Positions 1,902 to 27,001 of a stretch of DNA of 64,000 nt are shown one piece after another. A program made the position numbers and the translations under genes. Origin of the DNA: an uncultured Bacteroidales bacterium (GTDB lineage: Bacteria > Bacteroidota > Bacteroidia > Bacteroidales > Muribaculaceae); contig CACZNH010000015.1 of assembly GCA_902782465.1 (NCBI GenBank), forward strand, positions 41,720-105,719, read 5' to 3'. Positions within the stretch are counted from its first letter, which is position 1, and the number at the start of each line of letters is the position of its first letter. The notes beneath the pieces were generated by a model that was given only the letters and a program-made list of their open reading frames with translations, ran no database searches and had not been told where the DNA came from.

Positions 1902-3338
1902 ATGAAAGTAAGGCTCGACATCAACAACAAAGCGCACCGCCAACGCATCAAGTATGTGGTGGGCGACTTCGTGATGTCGAATCTCGCCTGGTTCATCTAC
2001 AACATCATCCGTTACCAGACAGGCAACGTCGTGGGATGGCCCTACCTGGTGAGCTACCTCAAGAGCGATATGGTGCTGTTGGGGCAGCTGTTCTTCCCGT
2101 TGCTGATGATGGTCACCTACGCCTTCAGCGGCTATTACAACAACGTGTGCCGCAAGTCACGCATCCAGGAGCTGCTCACCACGCTGGCCAGTGCGGGCAT
2201 CAACACGCTGATGATTTTCTTCCTGGCGCTAATTAACGACGTCATCGGCGTCCGCAGTGCTGACTATGGGATGATTCTGATTCTGTGGGCATTGCTGTTC
2301 GGCTTGGTTTATCTCGTGAGAGCCATCATCACCAATAACGCCTCCAAGCAGATAAAAGCCCGCAAATGGACCTTCCCGACGCTCATCATCGGCAGCGGCC
2401 CGGCAGCGGTGGCTTTTGCCGACAAGTTGGAGGGCAAACGCAATTTCTCGGGCCACGACGTCAAGGGTTTCGTCAACATTCCCGGCGAGGACCCCGTCAA
2501 GGACAATCCCCTGCCCCAATACGAACTCAATGACATCCAGGACGTGTGCCAGCGGCTCGGCATCTGGGAACTCATCGTGGTACCCTCGCGCGACGACACC
2601 TTCAGCACCATGAATGCCATCAACAAGCTCTTCCCTGTGGGCTTGCCGATTATGATTTCGCCCGAGTACTTCAACAAGATGCAGACGCCGGTGACCATCT
2701 CTGACCTCTACGGCGAGCCGCTGGTGAATATCTCGCGCAGCAGCATGAGCGACAGCGGCAAGAATATCAAGCGTGCGTTGGACATCATCATCTCGCTAGT
2801 CGCTCTTGTCGTACTCCTGCCGTTTTTTGCGATAGTGGCGCTCATCATCAAGCTGACCAGCCCTGGCCCCATCTTCTATCTGCAGGAACGCATCGGTCTG
2901 CACAACAAGCCGTTCCAAATCATCAAGTTCCGCTCGATGGTGCAGAACGCCGAACAGGCGGGAAAACCCCAACTGTCATCGGACGACGACCCGCGCATCA
3001 CCTCCTTCGGCCGCTTTATGCGCAAGTACCGCATCGACGAGCTGCCGCAATTCTGGAACGTGCTCAAGGGCGAAATGTCGCTCGTGGGTCCCAGACCCGA
3101 ACGCAAGTTCTACATCGACCAGATCACTCCGATAGTCCCGGCCTACGCGCTGCTGCATCAGGTGCGACCCGGCATCACGTCGATGGGCATGGTCAAATTC
3201 GGTTACGCCAAGAATCTGGACGAGATGCTGGAACGTGTGAAATATGACTTGATGTATCTGAATAACGCGTCGTTGATTAATGACATCAAGATACTTATTT
3301 ACACCATCAAAATCGTGCTCACAGGACGCGGAATGTGA
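1902..3338 (+). CDS. Polyprenyl-phosphate hexose-1-phosphate transferase (WcaJ/WbaP-like)
   Basis: Predicted to start surface polysaccharide synthesis by moving a sugar-1-phosphate from a UDP-sugar to undecaprenyl phosphate at the inner membrane. The 478-residue protein has the long architecture: four or so N-terminal membrane segments (residues ~20-145), a Rossmann-like middle domain beginning LIIGSGPAAVAFADKL, another hydrophobic segment (~295-320), then the C-terminal bacterial sugar-transferase domain. The latter shows SPGPIFYLQERIG, FKIIKFRSM-like FQIIKFRSMVQNAE, the YRIDELPQFWNVLKGEMS block and LVGPRPE, which are the family signatures. The sugar specificity cannot be read from sequence. 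Its stop overlaps the start of the next gene. Confidence 0.93.
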   Translation: MKVRLDINNKAHRQRIKYVVGDFVMSNLAWFIYNIIRYQTGNVVGWPYLVSYLKSDMVLLGQLFFPLLMMVTYAFSGYYNNVCRKSRIQELLTTLASAGINTLMIFFLALINDVIGVRSADYGMILILWALLFGLVYLVRAIITNNASKQIKARKWTFPTLIIGSGPAAVAFADKLEGKRNFSGHDVKGFVNIPGEDPVKDNPLPQYELNDIQDVCQRLGIWELIVVPSRDDTFSTMNAINKLFPVGLPIMISPEYFNKMQTPVTISDLYGEPLVNISRSSMSDSGKNIKRALDIIISLVALVVLLPFFAIVALIIKLTSPGPIFYLQERIGLHNKPFQIIKFRSMVQNAEQAGKPQLSSDDDPRITSFGRFMRKYRIDELPQFWNVLKGEMSLVGPRPERKFYIDQITPIVPAYALLHQVRPGITSMGMVKFGYAKNLDEMLERVKYDLMYLNNASLINDIKILIYTIKIVLTGRGM

Positions 3339-21315: not shown

Positions 21316-22902
21316 ATGTTTAAAAACCATCCCAAGGGTCTAATCCCTGCCGCGTTGAGCAACATGGGCGAGCGCTTCGGCTACTACATCATGAACGCCG
21401 TGCTGCTGCTGTTCCTGTGCTCCAAATTCGGCCTTGACGAGGGCACATCGGGTGCCATCTACAGCGTCTTCTATGCCGGTATCTATGTGTTAAGCCTCGT
21501 TGGCGGTTTCATTGCCGACCGCACCCAGAACTACAAGAGCACCATCCAGTGGGGTCTTGTCATCATGGCCGTTGGCTACGTGCTGCTCTCAATTCCCGTT
21601 CTCCACACTGCAGGCAACCACATGTGGCTGCTCGTGTTCACCTGCGTGGCCCTATTCCTGATTGCCTTCGGTAACGGTCTGTTCAAGGGCAACCTGCAGG
21701 CTATCGTGGGTCAGATGTATGATAACATGGAGGCCGATGCCATTGCCACCGGCAAGAGCGAGGAGGAAATCAAGTCCATCAAGGATCGCCGCGACTCGGG
21801 TTTCCAGATTTTCTACGTGTTCATCAACATCGGTGGTCTGATTGCCCCGTTCGTTGCTCCGCTGCTGCGCCAGTGGTGGCTGGGTGTCAAGGGCATGGTC
21901 TATGATGCTGGTCTTCCCGCCTTGTGCCACCAGTACCTGAAAGAAGGTGCCAATATGGCCGGTGAGCAGATGACCAACCTCACCACGCTGATGGAGAAGG
22001 TGAACCAGGGTGGTCTGGACCTCAGCGACATGGGTGCTGCATGCAACAGCTACCTTGAGGTCTTCAACACCGGTGTTCACTACAGCTTCATCGCTTCGGT
22101 GGTTGCCATGTTCATCTCGCTGTTCATCTTCATGGCATTTAAGAAAATCTTCCCCACTCCCGCCAAGAAAGAGGCTGCTGCAGTCGAAGAATACACTGCC
22201 GAGGAGAAGAGGGCTATGGCCAAGGAAATCAAGCAGCGCATGGCAGCGTTGTTCGCTGTGCTGGGCGTTTGCGTCTTCTTCTGGCTGTCGTTCCACCAGA
22301 ATGGCCAGTCGCTGTCGGTATTCGCACGCGACTATGTCATCACCGACAAGATTGCTCCCGAGATTTGGCAGGCCGTGAACCCGTTCTTCGTGATCGTGCT
22401 CACCCCCATCATCATGGCTATCTTTGCCTCATTGGCAAGAAAAGGTCACGCCATTTCCACACCTCGCAAGATTGTCATCGGTATGGCTATCACGGCATTG
22501 GCCTACCTGTTCCTGGTAGTGCTGAGCATGGGTTATGATTATCCCAATGGTGAAACCTTCCGTGCATTGGGTATCGACCAGCAGGCTGCCATGAAGTCAC
22601 AGTGGTGGGTACTGATTGCCACCTACTTCTTCCTGACCGTTGCCGAGCTGTTTATCTCGCCGCTGGGCCTGTCGTTTGTTTCCAAGATTGCTCCCAAGCA
22701 CCTGCAAGGTATCTGCCAGGGCTTGTGGCTGGGTGCCACCGCACTGGGCAACCTGTTTATCTGGATTGGTCCGGTTATGCTCAACAAGATGCCCAAGCTG
22801 TGGATGTGCTGGGCCGTCTTCCTGGTTATCTGCCTCGTCGCCATGGGCGTGATGTGGGGCATGGTCAGCTGGCTGGAGCGCGTCACTGGCGAGAAGGAGT
22901 AA
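21316..22902 (+). CDS. POT-family proton-coupled peptide transporter
   Basis: 528 residues, about 14 membrane segments. The POT signature ERFGYYIMNAVLLLFL lies at residues 16-31 (ExxERFxYY type), and the second motif GNGLFKGNLQAIVGQMY follows around residue 120, with DSGFQIFYVFINIGGLIAP nearby. An unusually long soluble or partly helical stretch (residues ~195-255) separates two membrane segments. Such transporters import di- and tripeptides with protons across the inner membrane. It is the first of two POT paralogues in tandem and lies upstream of peptidase T, so uptake and breakdown of small peptides are probably linked. Confidence 0.93.
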   Translation: MFKNHPKGLIPAALSNMGERFGYYIMNAVLLLFLCSKFGLDEGTSGAIYSVFYAGIYVLSLVGGFIADRTQNYKSTIQWGLVIMAVGYVLLSIPVLHTAGNHMWLLVFTCVALFLIAFGNGLFKGNLQAIVGQMYDNMEADAIATGKSEEEIKSIKDRRDSGFQIFYVFINIGGLIAPFVAPLLRQWWLGVKGMVYDAGLPALCHQYLKEGANMAGEQMTNLTTLMEKVNQGGLDLSDMGAACNSYLEVFNTGVHYSFIASVVAMFISLFIFMAFKKIFPTPAKKEAAAVEEYTAEEKRAMAKEIKQRMAALFAVLGVCVFFWLSFHQNGQSLSVFARDYVITDKIAPEIWQAVNPFFVIVLTPIIMAIFASLARKGHAISTPRKIVIGMAITALAYLFLVVLSMGYDYPNGETFRALGIDQQAAMKSQWWVLIATYFFLTVAELFISPLGLSFVSKIAPKHLQGICQGLWLGATALGNLFIWIGPVMLNKMPKLWMCWAVFLVICLVAMGVMWGMVSWLERVTGEKE

Positions 22903-22997: not shown

Positions 22998-24536
22998 ATG
23001 TTTGAAGGACAACCTAAAGGACTATTCGCGTTGGCACTGGCCAATACGGGCGAACGCTTCGGCTACTACACGATGATTGCCGTGTTCGCTCTCTTCCTCA
23101 GGGCCAACTATGGCTTGTCACCCGCAGTTGCCGGCACCATCTACAGTTCATTCCTGATGGTGGTGTATTTCCTCCCGCTCATCGGCGGCTGGATGGCCGA
23201 CAAGTTCGGCTTCGGCAAGATGGTGACCATCGGTATCATCATCATGTTCCTGGGATACCTGCTGCTGTCGGTGCCCCTGGGCGGCAACATGTTTGCACTC
23301 ATCGTGATGATTGGCGCATTGTTGCTCATTGGACTAGGCACGGGTCTGTTCAAGGGCAACCTGCAGGTGATGGTGGGCAACTTGTATGACGACCCGCAGT
23401 ACGCTGCAAAGCGTGACTCCGGCTTCTCGATTTTCTACATGGCCATCAACATCGGCGCCCTGTTCGCTCCGACGGCCGCCGTTAAAATCAAGGAGTATGC
23501 CGAGACCGCACTGGGCTTCTCGTCCAATGATGCCTACCACTTCTCGTTTGCCGTGGCTTGTGCCTCGCTGATTCTGTCGATTGCCATCTATTATGCCTTC
23601 CGCAGCACCTTCCGTCACTGCGAGGGTGGCAAGAAGGCCGCCGTCAAGGACGACAACACCGTGAAGGAGCCTGAGCTGAGCAAGGATGAGACCAAACAGC
23701 GCATCATCGCCCTGTGCCTCGTGTTTGCCGTCGTGGTATTCTTCTGGATGGCATTCCACCAGAACGGACTGTCGCTTACCTTCTTTGCCGACGAATTCAC
23801 CGCCAACACGTCTAGCGGCCTGCAGAGCATGGCCTTTGACGTGTGGAACCTGGTACTGGTCATCTTCATCGTCTATGCCGGCTTCTCACTGTTCCAGAGC
23901 AAGACGGCCAAGGCCAAGGGCATCTCGGGAGCCATCATCCTGGCGGCGCTGGGTATCCTGTACTACAAGTACGCCCGCACCACCGGCAGCATCGACATCG
24001 CAGCCCCGATTTTCCAGCAGTTCAACCCGTTCTACGTCGTAGCGTTGACGCCCGTTTCGATGGCCATCTTCGGCTGGCTGGCCGAGAAAGGCAAGGAGCC
24101 GTCGGCTCCGCGCAAGATTGCCTACGGTATGGTAGTCGCCGCCATCGCCTATGCCCTGATGGCATTTGCCTCGACAGGTCTGCCCATGCCGCAGCAGGCG
24201 CCCGACGCCAGCGGCAACCTCGTGGGCCAGCATGTTGCCGACGTGACGCCCAACCTGCTCATCAGCGTCTATCTGATTCTCACCTTCGGCGAGCTGCTGC
24301 TCTCCCCGATGGGCATCTCGTTCGTCAGCAAGGTGGCGCCTCCCAAGTACAAGGGTGCGATGATGGGTGGCTGGTTCGTTTCCACCGCGCTGGGTAACCA
24401 GCTCGTCCTCGTGGGCGGTGCCCTGTGGGGCAAGGTGCCCTTGTGGGTATGCTGGAGCGTCTTCATGGGTGTCTGCCTCGTCGCAGCCATCTTCATGTTC
24501 GCCATGATGAAGCGCCTCGAGAAAGTCGCGAAGTAA
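22998..24536 (+). CDS. Second POT-family peptide transporter
   Basis: 512 residues, about 14 membrane segments. It carries the same motifs as its neighbour: ERFGYYTMIAVFALFLRANY near residue 18, GTGLFKGNLQVMVGNLYDD around residue 115 and DSGFSIFYMAINIGALFAP. It lacks the long insert seen in the upstream paralogue. The final membrane segments contain GISFVSKVAPPKYKGAMMGG, also conserved in the first copy, so the pair arose by duplication. The products may differ in peptide preference. The gene starts 95 bases after its paralogue, with a hairpin between them. Confidence 0.93.
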   Translation: MFEGQPKGLFALALANTGERFGYYTMIAVFALFLRANYGLSPAVAGTIYSSFLMVVYFLPLIGGWMADKFGFGKMVTIGIIIMFLGYLLLSVPLGGNMFALIVMIGALLLIGLGTGLFKGNLQVMVGNLYDDPQYAAKRDSGFSIFYMAINIGALFAPTAAVKIKEYAETALGFSSNDAYHFSFAVACASLILSIAIYYAFRSTFRHCEGGKKAAVKDDNTVKEPELSKDETKQRIIALCLVFAVVVFFWMAFHQNGLSLTFFADEFTANTSSGLQSMAFDVWNLVLVIFIVYAGFSLFQSKTAKAKGISGAIILAALGILYYKYARTTGSIDIAAPIFQQFNPFYVVALTPVSMAIFGWLAEKGKEPSAPRKIAYGMVVAAIAYALMAFASTGLPMPQQAPDASGNLVGQHVADVTPNLLISVYLILTFGELLLSPMGISFVSKVAPPKYKGAMMGGWFVSTALGNQLVLVGGALWGKVPLWVCWSVFMGVCLVAAIFMFAMMKRLEKVAK

Positions 24537-24547
24537 ACATCCACTAC

Positions 24548-24620
24548 AGCGAGCCGGAGGCTCGCAATACCTCGACAACCACGGCTGGCCCGTCGGAGTA
24601 TTGCGAGCCTCCGGCTTGCT
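24548..24620. repeat. REP/BIME-like palindromic element, left copy
   Basis: 73 bp with outer arms that are inverted repeats of each other. Each arm holds the small palindrome GCGAGCC-GGA-GGCTCGC or a close variant, the shape of a REP unit. The whole element is nearly the reverse complement of the one at 25608-25680. Confidence 0.85.
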
Positions 24621-24636
24621 TTAAAAACAACAAGAC

Positions 24637-25599
24637 ATGGACGATAAGCGCAACGAGGGCCGCAAGCTGTGGTCACAAAATCATTCCGACGTGCCCGCCA
24701 CGCCCTCAATGAAGCGCCGGATGGTAAGCCACGACTACCAGGGCAAAGCCATCTACCTGATTACCCTGTGCGTGGAGGGGCGTGTCCCATGCCTCGGCAC
24801 CCTGTGCAGTCCTGACGAGGACCATACTCAGCCGTGGGTCGCCCCCACCCCATTGGGAACAAAGGTCAAAGCCGAATGGGAGGGCATCCCGCGATACTAC
24901 CCTCAAATCAGGATACTGGCATTGACCCTCATGCCTGACCACATACATGGTATCCTGTTCGTCACCGATGTGCTCCCCGTGCATTTGGGTAAAGTCATCA
25001 ACGGCTTCAAGGCTGGCTGCAACAGGGCAGCACAGGAGTTGGGACAAGCTGTTCCGCTATGGGAGAAAGGGTATACCGACGGTGTGCTCCGCGGTAAAGG
25101 GCAACTCAACCGTTGGATGGCTTACCTAGCTGACAACCCTCGACGGTTATGGATAAAGCGGAACCAGCACGACTATTTCAAGGTTTCCCATCTTCTCACC
25201 GTTGGCGGTGCTACAGTCAGCGCAGTGGGCAACCATCAGCTCCTGCATCACCCGTCAATCATGCAGGTCTATTGCTCGCGACGCATGAGCCAGGAGGAGA
25301 TTGCCCGTGAGGGAGACCGCCTACTCGCACAAGGAGCCGTGCTTGTGTCCCCCGCCATCAGTCTGGGAGAGAAAACCATCATCAACAGAGCACTCGAGGC
25401 TGGAGTCCCCGTCATCCTCATCACCAACAATGGCCTCGGCGAAATGGCAAAGCCTGGCGGCAAGCTGTTCGACGCCTGCGCAGCAGGCAAGTTGCTTTTC
25501 GTCTCTCCATTCGAGCACCGCAACGACTACCAGCCATTGACGGCCGAATGCTGCCGCGAGATGAATGCCCTGGCCAGGTCCATCGCCAACAGGCAGTGA
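24637..25599 (+). CDS. REP-associated tyrosine transposase fused to a DprA/SLOG-like domain
   Basis: 320 residues. Residues ~25-175 are a Y1 (IS200-like/RAYT) HUH nuclease domain: IYLITLCVEGR as first strand, the metal-binding LMPDHIHGI with His102 and His104, GYTDGVLRGKG, and the candidate catalytic Tyr163 in MAYLADNPRRL, the Y-x-x-x-NP context of RAYTs. Residues ~195-320 form a second domain starting GNHQLLHHPSIMQV, with AQGAVLVSPAISLGEK, AGVPVILITNNG and KPGGKLFDACAAG, resembling the Rossmann-like SLOG fold of DprA. Y1 enzymes nick single-stranded hairpin DNA, and DprA binds single-stranded DNA, so the fusion is plausible for ssDNA handling; that role is inference. It starts 16 bases after the left REP element, and its stop lies eight bases before the right one. 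Confidence 0.85.
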   Translation: MDDKRNEGRKLWSQNHSDVPATPSMKRRMVSHDYQGKAIYLITLCVEGRVPCLGTLCSPDEDHTQPWVAPTPLGTKVKAEWEGIPRYYPQIRILALTLMPDHIHGILFVTDVLPVHLGKVINGFKAGCNRAAQELGQAVPLWEKGYTDGVLRGKGQLNRWMAYLADNPRRLWIKRNQHDYFKVSHLLTVGGATVSAVGNHQLLHHPSIMQVYCSRRMSQEEIAREGDRLLAQGAVLVSPAISLGEKTIINRALEAGVPVILITNNGLGEMAKPGGKLFDACAAGKLLFVSPFEHRNDYQPLTAECCREMNALARSIANRQ

Positions 25600-25607
25600 C
25601 ACCACAC

Positions 25608-25680
25608 AGCGAGCCGGAGGCTCCTAATACTCCGACGGGCCAGTCGTGCTTGTCGAGGTATTGCGAGCCTCCGGCTCGCT
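25608..25680. repeat. REP/BIME-like palindromic element, right copy
   Basis: Near reverse complement of 24548-24620, with an imperfect inner REP hairpin on its left side (GGCTCCT instead of GGCTCGC). The right arm is intact. Confidence 0.85.
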
Positions 25681-25727
25681 TTATAATAAAAAACACGCGT
25701 GGCGTGATATAACTGACAAATTTTCAC

Positions 25728-25783: not shown

Positions 25784-27001
25784 ATGACAAAATTAGTTGA
25801 CAGATTTTTGAAGTATGTGAAGTTCGACACCCAGAGTGACGAACTCACCAACTTGACGCCCTCGACACCGGGCCAGATGGTGTTTGCCAAGGAGCTGGAA
25901 AAGGAATTGCACGCCATGGGCCTGAGCGACATCTCACTCGATGACAACGGCTACCTGTTTGCCACGCTGCCCGCCAACACCGACAAGCCCGTGCCCACCG
26001 TGGGCTTCATCGCCCACATGGACACCGCCCCCGACATGAGCGGCCATGACGTGAAACCCCGCATCGTGAAGTATGAGGGCGAGCCTATCGTGCTCAGCGA
26101 GGAGCCCCGCATTGTCCTCGACCCTGTGCAGTTCCCCGAGATGAACGACTACAAGGGCCAGGACTTCATCGTCACCAGCGGTGACACGCTGCTCGGTGCC
26201 GACGATAAGGCAGGTATTGCCGAGATTCTGTCTGCCATCGAATGGCTGCAGGAGCACCCCGAGGTGAAACACGGCAACATCCGCGTGGGCTTCAACCCCG
26301 ACGAGGAAATCGGCTTGGGTGCCCACCACTTTGACGTGGAGAAGTTTGGCTGTGACTGGGCCTATACCATGGACGGTGGCGCCGTGGGCGAGCTGGAGTA
26401 TGAAAACTTCAATGCCGCCAGCGCCAAGATTACCTTCAAGGGCCTGAACGTCCATCCCGGTGCCGCCAAGCACAAGATGCTCAACTCGATGCGCGTTGCC
26501 CTGCAGTTCGCTGCCATGCTGCCGCGCTGGGAGACGCCCGAGCACACCGAGGGCTACGAGGGTTTCTACCACCTCATCCACATGGAAGGTGGCGTTGAGC
26601 AGACCACGCTGAACTACATCATCCGCGACCACGACCGCGCCCGCTTTGAGAGCCGCAAGCGCGAAATCGAGCACCTGTGCCGCAAAATCAACTCCGAGTT
26701 CCCCGATTGCGCTTCGTGCGAAATCAAGGACCAGTACTACAACATGCGCGAGAAGATTGAGCCGGTGATGAACATCATCGACATCGCCAAGCAGGCTATG
26801 GAGAATGCCGGCGTCACCCCCAAGGTGCAGCCCATCCGTGGCGGTACCGACGGTGCCCAGCTGTCGTTCAAGAACCTGCCCTGCCCCAACATCTTTGCCG
26901 GCGGCATGAACATGCACGGTCGCTTTGAGTATGTGCCCATCCCCTCGATGGAGAAGGCGATGATGACCATCATCGAGATTTGCAAGCTGGTGGCCGAATG
27001 A
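25784..27001 (+). CDS. pepT: Peptidase T (tripeptide aminopeptidase)
   Basis: 405 residues, the usual length for this M20B zinc peptidase, which removes the N-terminal residue from tripeptides in the cytoplasm. Metal-site and catalytic motifs are visible: [13 protein letters not shown] (His and Asp), [25 protein letters not shown] (Glu pair) and [17 protein letters not shown]. The dimerisation-domain block [17 protein letters not shown] and the C-terminal [18 protein letters not shown] with final His in [11 protein letters not shown] complete the set. Two POT peptide transporters lie upstream, so this gene probably completes a peptide-use pathway, although a RAYT unit separates them and pepT has its own -7 element. 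Confidence 0.96.

Follow-up and report, generated by a model that had tools for sequence, protein, structure and literature searches.

A stretch of 64,000 nt from the genome of an uncultured Bacteroidales bacterium (hereafter, the window) carries a gene that joins a predicted REPtron nuclease to a cut-down DprA domain, a fusion found often in the genus of the window and patchily through its order. The gene is bracketed by two REPIN-like palindromes and lies directly behind a gene for a transporter of the POT family. We think it probable that this is a REPtron-type element, the nuclease of which has its own grip on single-stranded DNA (ssDNA) and is gained and lost together with a REPIN at the POT-gene site.

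Organization of the element

The features of the locus are as follows (window coordinates).

22998–24536, + strand: POT-family transporter gene (Pfam PTR2, 8.1e-46), the 3' end of which is the conserved site
24545–24623, no strand: upstream REPIN-like palindrome with two inverted REP halves (repeat and folding analysis)
24549–24570, + strand: REP half 1, a GCGAGCC-GGA-GGCTCGC hairpin with AATAC foot (pattern match, G000:C15:66268-66289)
24598–24619, − strand: REP half 2, one mismatch to the pattern (G000:C15:66317-66338)
24637–25599, + strand: RAYT–DprA-like fusion gene, 320 aa, one open reading frame with two domains
24724–25176, + strand: HUH/Y1 nuclease domain, about residues 30–180, with H102, H104 and Y163 (NCBIfam NF047646; Foldseek)
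25186–25596, + strand: DprA-like Rossmann (SLOG) domain, about residues 184–320 (profile searches, Foldseek, hhalign)
25606–25683, no strand: downstream REPIN-like palindrome (repeat and folding analysis)
25609–25630, + strand: REP half 3, degenerate, with CTAATAC in place of GCAATAC and unmatched by the strict pattern
25658–25679, − strand: REP half 4, perfect (G000:C15:67377-67398)
25784–27001, + strand: M20-family peptidase gene downstream of the element (Pfam M20 domains), which we take to be peptidase T

A second POT-family transporter gene lies beside the first on its upstream side (21316–22902).

The nuclease domain

The catalytic motif H102-I-H104 and Y163 were found where the original prediction had placed them, and they are nearly invariant, H102 being kept in 86 of 87 aligned distinct homologues and H104 and Y163 in all 87. 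This alignment excludes identical proteins and L102, in which the gene is split over two frames; a smaller version, A3, consists of 73 of its 87 rows. Since the HUH residues vary so little, catalysis seems to be under selection. The HUH core also shows the family motifs DH[IL]H and YLxDNPRR. Assignment to the Y1 HUH nucleases of RAYT type, as first proposed, agrees with NCBIfam model NF047646 (REP_Tyr_transpos), which is matched at E ≤ 0.01 by 87 of 87 family members and by the window protein over residues 90–180 (E 9.3e-9), though the 35.3 bits of the latter are far under the curated cut-off of 80 bits. Pfam Y1_Tnp is matched by 63 of the 87 members at E ≤ 0.1, and Foldseek paired the HUH part with the IS200-type transposases 2xm3 and 2ec2 and the REP transposase 4er8. 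In pairs among 14 orthologues the HUH part has a median dN/dS of 0.12 and the C-terminal part one of 0.11, the median dS of these pairs (1.2–1.3) being near saturation.

Palindromes and REP halves

The two palindromes form an inverted pair with 76-nt arms that are 92% complementary and lie 987 nt apart. They had been described beforehand as mirror-image elements of 73 bp; that there are two palindromes, near reverse complements of each other, is correct, but the arms measure 76 nt and their relative orientation is not conserved in orthologues. Because each is self-palindromic, the two double as direct repeats (76%), and in the orthologues L015, L016 and L021 the direct match (92–98%) is the main one. 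Folded on the + strand with DNA parameters, the upstream palindrome reaches −33.1 kcal/mol (z −9.55) and the downstream one −29.0 kcal/mol (z −6.89), with 0 of 200 shuffles as good in either case, while the folding of a single small hairpin plus foot is unremarkable (z −1.57, 16 of 200 shuffles). Each palindrome is built of two inverted GCGAGCC-NNN-GGCTCGC hairpins with an AATAC/GTATT foot, which is the layout of a REPIN, so the smaller REP-type hairpins predicted inside the palindromes are indeed present. In REP half 3 the 13-nt hairpin core is exact despite the degenerate foot side. The foot in the window lineage is GTATT/AATAC, not GTAG. Over 97 REP copies, which are related and in many cases were gathered with a search pattern biased towards the stem, one stem pair occurs as C-G (73), G-C (15), A-T (1) or unpaired (8); at the neighbouring pair no compensated change was seen in the 97 copies (C-G 87, T-G 1, unpaired 9).

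The POT-gene site across the genus

The site behind the POT gene was classified in 63 genomes of the genus, the other 38 of 101 being unfetched, cut by a contig end or without a close POT gene. It holds the fusion gene in 17, a REPIN or REP only in 13, and neither in 33, where 'neither' follows a strict scan and includes G013 and G091 with degenerate REPs; just 257–993 nt were available for the scan in G066, G035 and G024, and the G057 stretch ends at a contig end, so that REP positions there are offset. A strict REP stands upstream of the gene at 16 of the 17 gene-bearing sites (not in G018) and downstream at 14. Two halves are present at eight of the 13 REP-only sites (four with one half degenerate) and a single REP at five. 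Altogether 17 of 18 genus orthologues occupy this one site, the eighteenth (G099) being at a contig end where it cannot be judged.

The right-hand neighbour may be the same whether or not the gene is present, in a comparison that covers a minority of the gene-bearing genomes. The M20 peptidase follows the gene in the window and in G065, and follows a gene-free site in G029, G054, G078 and G081 (REP only) and in G058 and G091 (neither). A phosphoribosyltransferase (identified by Pfam in L016, which is G082, and by eye in the remainder) takes this place in other species, both gene-bearing and gene-free. G065, with the gene, and G081, without it, have the right-hand REP foot and the sequence after it in common. 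Since they match from this foot onwards, the comparison suggests that the left REPIN and the gene form the unit that is present or absent.

The genome comparisons thus provide, at one site in many species, a natural series of gene with REPINs, solo REPIN, single REP and nothing. Such a series would allow gain and loss to be ordered, and bears on how REPs spread and why RAYTs are maintained.

Gain and loss of the gene

According to the reading we prefer, the HUH domain would recognise the small REP hairpin (GCGAGCC-NNN-GGCTCGC, GTATT foot), either when the palindrome is extruded or when it is single-stranded in replication, and Y163 would cleave or transfer that REP strand. Gain and loss would involve the gene together with one REPIN, as one unit, at a REP already resident behind the POT gene, and loss would leave behind a solo REPIN or REP. 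We infer that gain and loss may be driven by the enzyme or by plain recombination; the REP-only sites are explicable by recombination between the two repeats, with no enzyme required.

A different account holds that the protein is a domesticated host factor and the REPINs act chiefly as hairpins or terminators at the 3' end of the POT gene, with vertical inheritance, loss by recombination and no transposition. Several observations fit: the confinement of the judgeable genus orthologues to a single site; the ordinary hairpin that stands, by eye, in the REP's place behind the POT gene of at least two REP-free genomes, G084 (L231) and G075 (L240); and direct repeats that in some species reach 92–98%, which would be enough for deletion. 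A REPIN may have taken over the terminator role behind this gene. Repeated loss would also account for the scatter of site states over the transporter tree, where they need 10 changes for 12 gene-bearing rows (385 of 500 shuffles were as low), at least four of them forced by well-supported branches, and there is no clustering relative to shuffles. Against this account stand the near-invariance of the HUH residues, the REPs of the same type found elsewhere, single or in tandem, and the fact that the gene and transporter trees reject each other's clades. The gene data reject the transporter clade of G000, G068, G070, G055, G065, G015 and G047 (p-AU 7.6e-5); conversely, the pair G057 and G065 of the gene tree is rejected by the transporter data (1.5e-7). 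These conflicting clades were picked after the trees were seen. The gene data do not reject the clades G059+G093+G018 and G093+G018 (p 0.45 and 0.28), so that horizontal exchange hinges on one post hoc conflict. Pairwise identities of the transporter and of the fusion protein are weakly correlated over 12 species (Spearman 0.32, pairs not independent). On balance, domestication is possible, but we consider it rather unlikely.

The element could also be an autonomous ssDNA REP transposon, in which the HUH domain would cut, the DprA-derived domain would hold the strand, and gene plus REPIN would enter a resident REP, with the reverse reaction leaving the solo REPIN. We regard this as unlikely, though still worth entertaining; if true, it would make the element a mobile REPtron and not a domesticated one.

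REPs and hairpins away from the gene

REPtrons go with many cognate REPs dispersed in the genome; the window genome has few away from the gene, an observation that counts against the preferred reading. With the foot included, the REP pattern has four matches in it, three at the gene and one elsewhere (C34:11321), while the window-type hairpin core occurs four times at the gene and, with one mismatch, three times elsewhere, against four for a control. The original prediction had called for a genome-wide count of the element; REPs at the gene were recovered, but a single further pattern match is close to the absence of other copies that it had named as speaking against it. Counts of pattern, core and paralogue hairpins all failed to find abundant dispersed REPs in this genome.

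The anticipated co-occurrence of gene and REPs in relatives was observed: the pattern is found in 18 of 18 genus genomes with an orthologue against 30 of 83 without, a figure that holds partly by construction as copies at the gene are counted. Totals range from 3 to 11 in the 18 orthologue-bearing genomes, gene copies included. When four copies per carrier are subtracted, 13 of the 18 still have REPs and carriers are richer (p 0.0015, a value that ignores kinship among genomes). The reversed pattern, used as a control, gave no matches. Five REP stretches away from the gene are solitary or tandem runs of two to four. Those at L300:1017-1153 (four units) and L299:1070-1188 (three units) run head to tail, unlike the paired REPs of REPINs.

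Hairpins differ by lineage. L002 has CCGGGGCAGAGCCCCGG, L003 has CGAGGCAGAGCCTCG, and L094–L097 and L099–L101 have GTTGCGTTG-N-CAACGCAAC. In the window genome the exact L002 and L003 hairpins are found only beside their own genes; when one mismatch is allowed, there are three matches elsewhere, where the control has one. The hairpins of all three fusion genes of this genome are almost confined to the gene surroundings.

Over the whole family, 41 of 105 fusion genes (L037 was left out, its flank being too short) have a stretch of 14 nt or more in common between the 450 nt upstream and the 450 nt downstream, compared with 16 of 400 mismatched control pairs, a control figure inflated by orthologues. 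Of the usable POT-site orthologues, 16 of 17 are bracketed by this exact-match criterion. For the remaining fusions the figure is 25 of 88, a few of these by low-complexity sequence, so that by this test most fusion genes outside the window lineage are without bracketing repeats, which counts against the preferred reading. A hairpin with foot occurs near the gene in 18 of 18 orthologues and at 13 of 88 other loci, and farther off in 0 of 18 and 2 of 88. A second group of orthologous fusions (L094–L097, L099 and L101) sits at another shared site, with a different hairpin, adjoining what is presumably a sigma-factor-like gene; the hairpin of this group is upstream in these six and downstream in L100, which lies elsewhere.

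The DprA-like domain

The C-terminal domain carries the motifs GN..LL, SR, VSP.IS.GE, KP.G and N.LA, and its predicted resemblance to the Rossmann (SLOG) fold of DprA is confirmed by profile and structure-model comparisons. When the whole-family profile was compared with PDB sequences, ten matches were obtained up to E 10, and every one was an IS200-type transposase (best E 7.8e-4) or a DprA (best E 0.018). With the C-terminal profile alone, the top four were DprA entries (0.0036–0.009) and the next match stood at 0.98. Structure prediction, the check first suggested, was carried out with AlphaFold from 14 close sequences. The model has a mean pLDDT of 69.2 and a pTM of 0.50, with a pLDDT of about 90 at residues 200–260 and below 50 at residues 144–178, Y163 included. 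Foldseek ranks 1–32 for this model are all DprA/ShosA or HUH transposases; the best match, and the sole one under 0.001, is ShosA (8zva, 1.5e-4), and no TM-score is high (TMq at most 0.36). The middling quality of the model and these low scores count against the reading.

A family of small stand-alone DprA-like proteins provides a bridge. In hhalign comparisons of one profile with one profile, the fused domain matches this family at 2.8e-14 (probability 98), and the family matches DprA at 1.6e-5 (probability 79). The direct comparison of fused domain and DprA gave 9.9e-5 (probability 58), or 0.0017 with fewer (73) sequences, and control comparisons of one reversed and five column-permuted profiles with DprA gave 0.057–0.66. 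Four stand-alone proteins that were scanned match PF02481 at 1.8e-6 to 2.2e-5, slightly under its cut-off; a direct Pfam search of the window's C-terminal domain gave no identification. In the alignments, GN..LL and R215 of the fusion fall on GN..LL and the GSR arginine of DprA. The bridged alignment pairs N310 with the asparagine of RNR in DprA, a motif that only this alignment reaches, the direct one ending before N310.

In pneumococcal DprA the GSR arginine, R115, contributes to ssDNA binding along with a lysine patch (PMC4066776). Its equivalent R215 is kept in 83 of 87 proteins, and a grip on ssDNA by the fused domain is therefore plausible. The preferred reading takes the domain to be a cut-down DprA Rossmann fold, nearest to the small stand-alone proteins, which would most likely give the enzyme its own hold on the ssDNA next to the hairpin and might steady or protect the cut strand or help in finding target ssDNA. 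The fusion would then point to a specific task for a partner that binds ssDNA when REPs are processed, and DprA-like folds would gain a place outside competence and toxin–antitoxin systems.

It could be speculated instead that the SLOG domain acts as a sensor, like the DprA-like proteins of the PsyrTA/ShosTA defence systems, and gates the nuclease in a defence or stress response. ShosA is the top structural match, and the PADLOC PsyrA model matches the stand-alone protein L144 (2.5e-12) and one of three fusions scanned, L107 (0.0027). The other two fusions, the window protein and L002, have no PADLOC match, however, and the ssDNA arginine is kept. PsyrA and ShosA are antitoxins with an adjacent toxin gene, whereas the immediate neighbours of the fusion are the POT transporter and the M20 peptidase. 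A sensor role thus appears doubtful to us.

The original prediction had also linked the fusion to RecA loading, with the hairpin as the place where RecA would be put on ssDNA. That the domain is homologous to the Rossmann domain of DprA speaks for this, but the protein stops short of the part concerned. In pneumococcal DprA, E235, M238, D243 and E265 and the dimer zone G249–D275 are linked to RecA binding and dimerisation (PMC4066776), and these lie, counted on the alignment, 26–66 residues past the RNR asparagine N209. Past the N310 equivalent there are 10 residues in the window protein and 8–30 across the 87 proteins, so that by alignment the dimer and RecA surface region is absent. Because the protein ends before this region, RecA loading is unlikely, and the window genome already encodes an ordinary DprA of its own; as an account of the fusion we give it very little credence. 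That the resemblance is one of generic Rossmann folds, as the modest direct E-values and the lack of any Pfam DprA match (0 of 87 fused proteins at E ≤ 0.1) might suggest, is highly improbable, given that the GN..LL lead-in, SR, VS and terminal N of DprA align colinearly, that no other Rossmann family matches below 0.5 in the PDB or appears in Foldseek ranks 1–32, and that, in the chain via the stand-alone family, each of the two links reaches significance.

Relation to known systems

Among the closest known systems are the RAYT/TnpAREP REPtrons (class 2; Quentin et al. 2018, PMC6006769), which share the core of HUH and single Tyr. Further likenesses are the low-copy, diverged paralogues, a gene bracketed by REPs or REPINs, and hairpins particular to each lineage; RAYT genes are described as flanked by GTAG repeats or long inverted repeats (PMC3733652). 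TnpAREP is treated as domesticated in PMC8266576. The fusion differs in its DprA-like C-terminal domain, its few dispersed REPs and its foot, which is GTATT where that of REPtrons is GT[AG]G, although the GT[AG]G foot is also missing in subclass 2.6 and class 3 (PMC6006769). Its motifs DH[IL]H and YLxDNPRR have no exact counterpart in the table of that paper, and the main text there makes no mention of DprA. The expectation that classical RAYTs lack a C-terminal domain such as this one needs correcting: large C-terminal domains are described in other subclasses, which have no REPs (PMC6006769). TnpAY1 subclasses 2.1 and 2.3 resemble the fusion in having a RAYT-type core with a long C-terminal extension; they are described as REP-free, and the extensions as DnaA_C/HTH-like or subclass-specific (PMC6006769). 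Titles and abstract openings in the open-licence PMC literature yielded no description of a RAYT–DprA fusion; four papers that name both DprA and RAYT do so once or twice and have unrelated titles.

IS200/IS605 insertion sequences occur as several near-identical copies in a genome and often, though not always, have a tnpB partner. The window genome differs in that its two further copies of the fusion are only 52% and 47% identical to the window protein. The fused domain shares with DprA (DNA_processg_A, PF02481) the Rossmann fold, the GN..LL lead-in, the GSR-type arginine and an RNR-equivalent helix, but it is shorter, with no SAM or winged-helix part and no dimer/RecA region, has 'GE' where DprA has 'GID', and is fused to a nuclease. 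Its closest relatives, the stand-alone DprA-like proteins and PsyrA/ShosA, are unfused.

Distribution of the family

In all, 106 fusion genes were collected, and seven families of the order are represented among them. (L192 and L179 are one gene, and L180 is a remnant.) Matches to the full protein occur in 80 of 101 genomes of the genus, up to 12 in one genome, and at the family level in 141 of 297 genomes when weak and partial matches are counted. In the order, the C-terminal profile matched 19 of 295 genomes, a count that includes the window genome, stand-alone proteins and remnants, and this search added 19 fusion genes from six further families. In the phylum 17 of 395 genomes match, and inspection of these sequences by eye showed no fusion besides that of the window genome; some of the weakest matches presumably resemble unrelated MreB-type proteins. 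A formal HUH scan covered 12 loci from the phylum and order searches. A viral origin was considered and set aside, as scans of IMG/VR viral contigs with narrow peptide patterns, which find close relatives only, gave no relative.

The stand-alone DprA-like proteins (L144–L147, L150, L181, L183 and L184) are encoded by open frames of 154–196 aa. At L147 the stand-alone gene (1462–1944) is followed about 0.6 kb downstream by a separate RAYT of 164 aa (2510–3001); this arrangement was not adopted as a two-gene precursor of the fusion, being seen at one of the 12 loci scanned. L148, L149 and L151 are larger open reading frames of 661–676 aa with, by eye, two DprA-like stretches, and L149 matches PF02481 at 2.1e-46 in two stretches.
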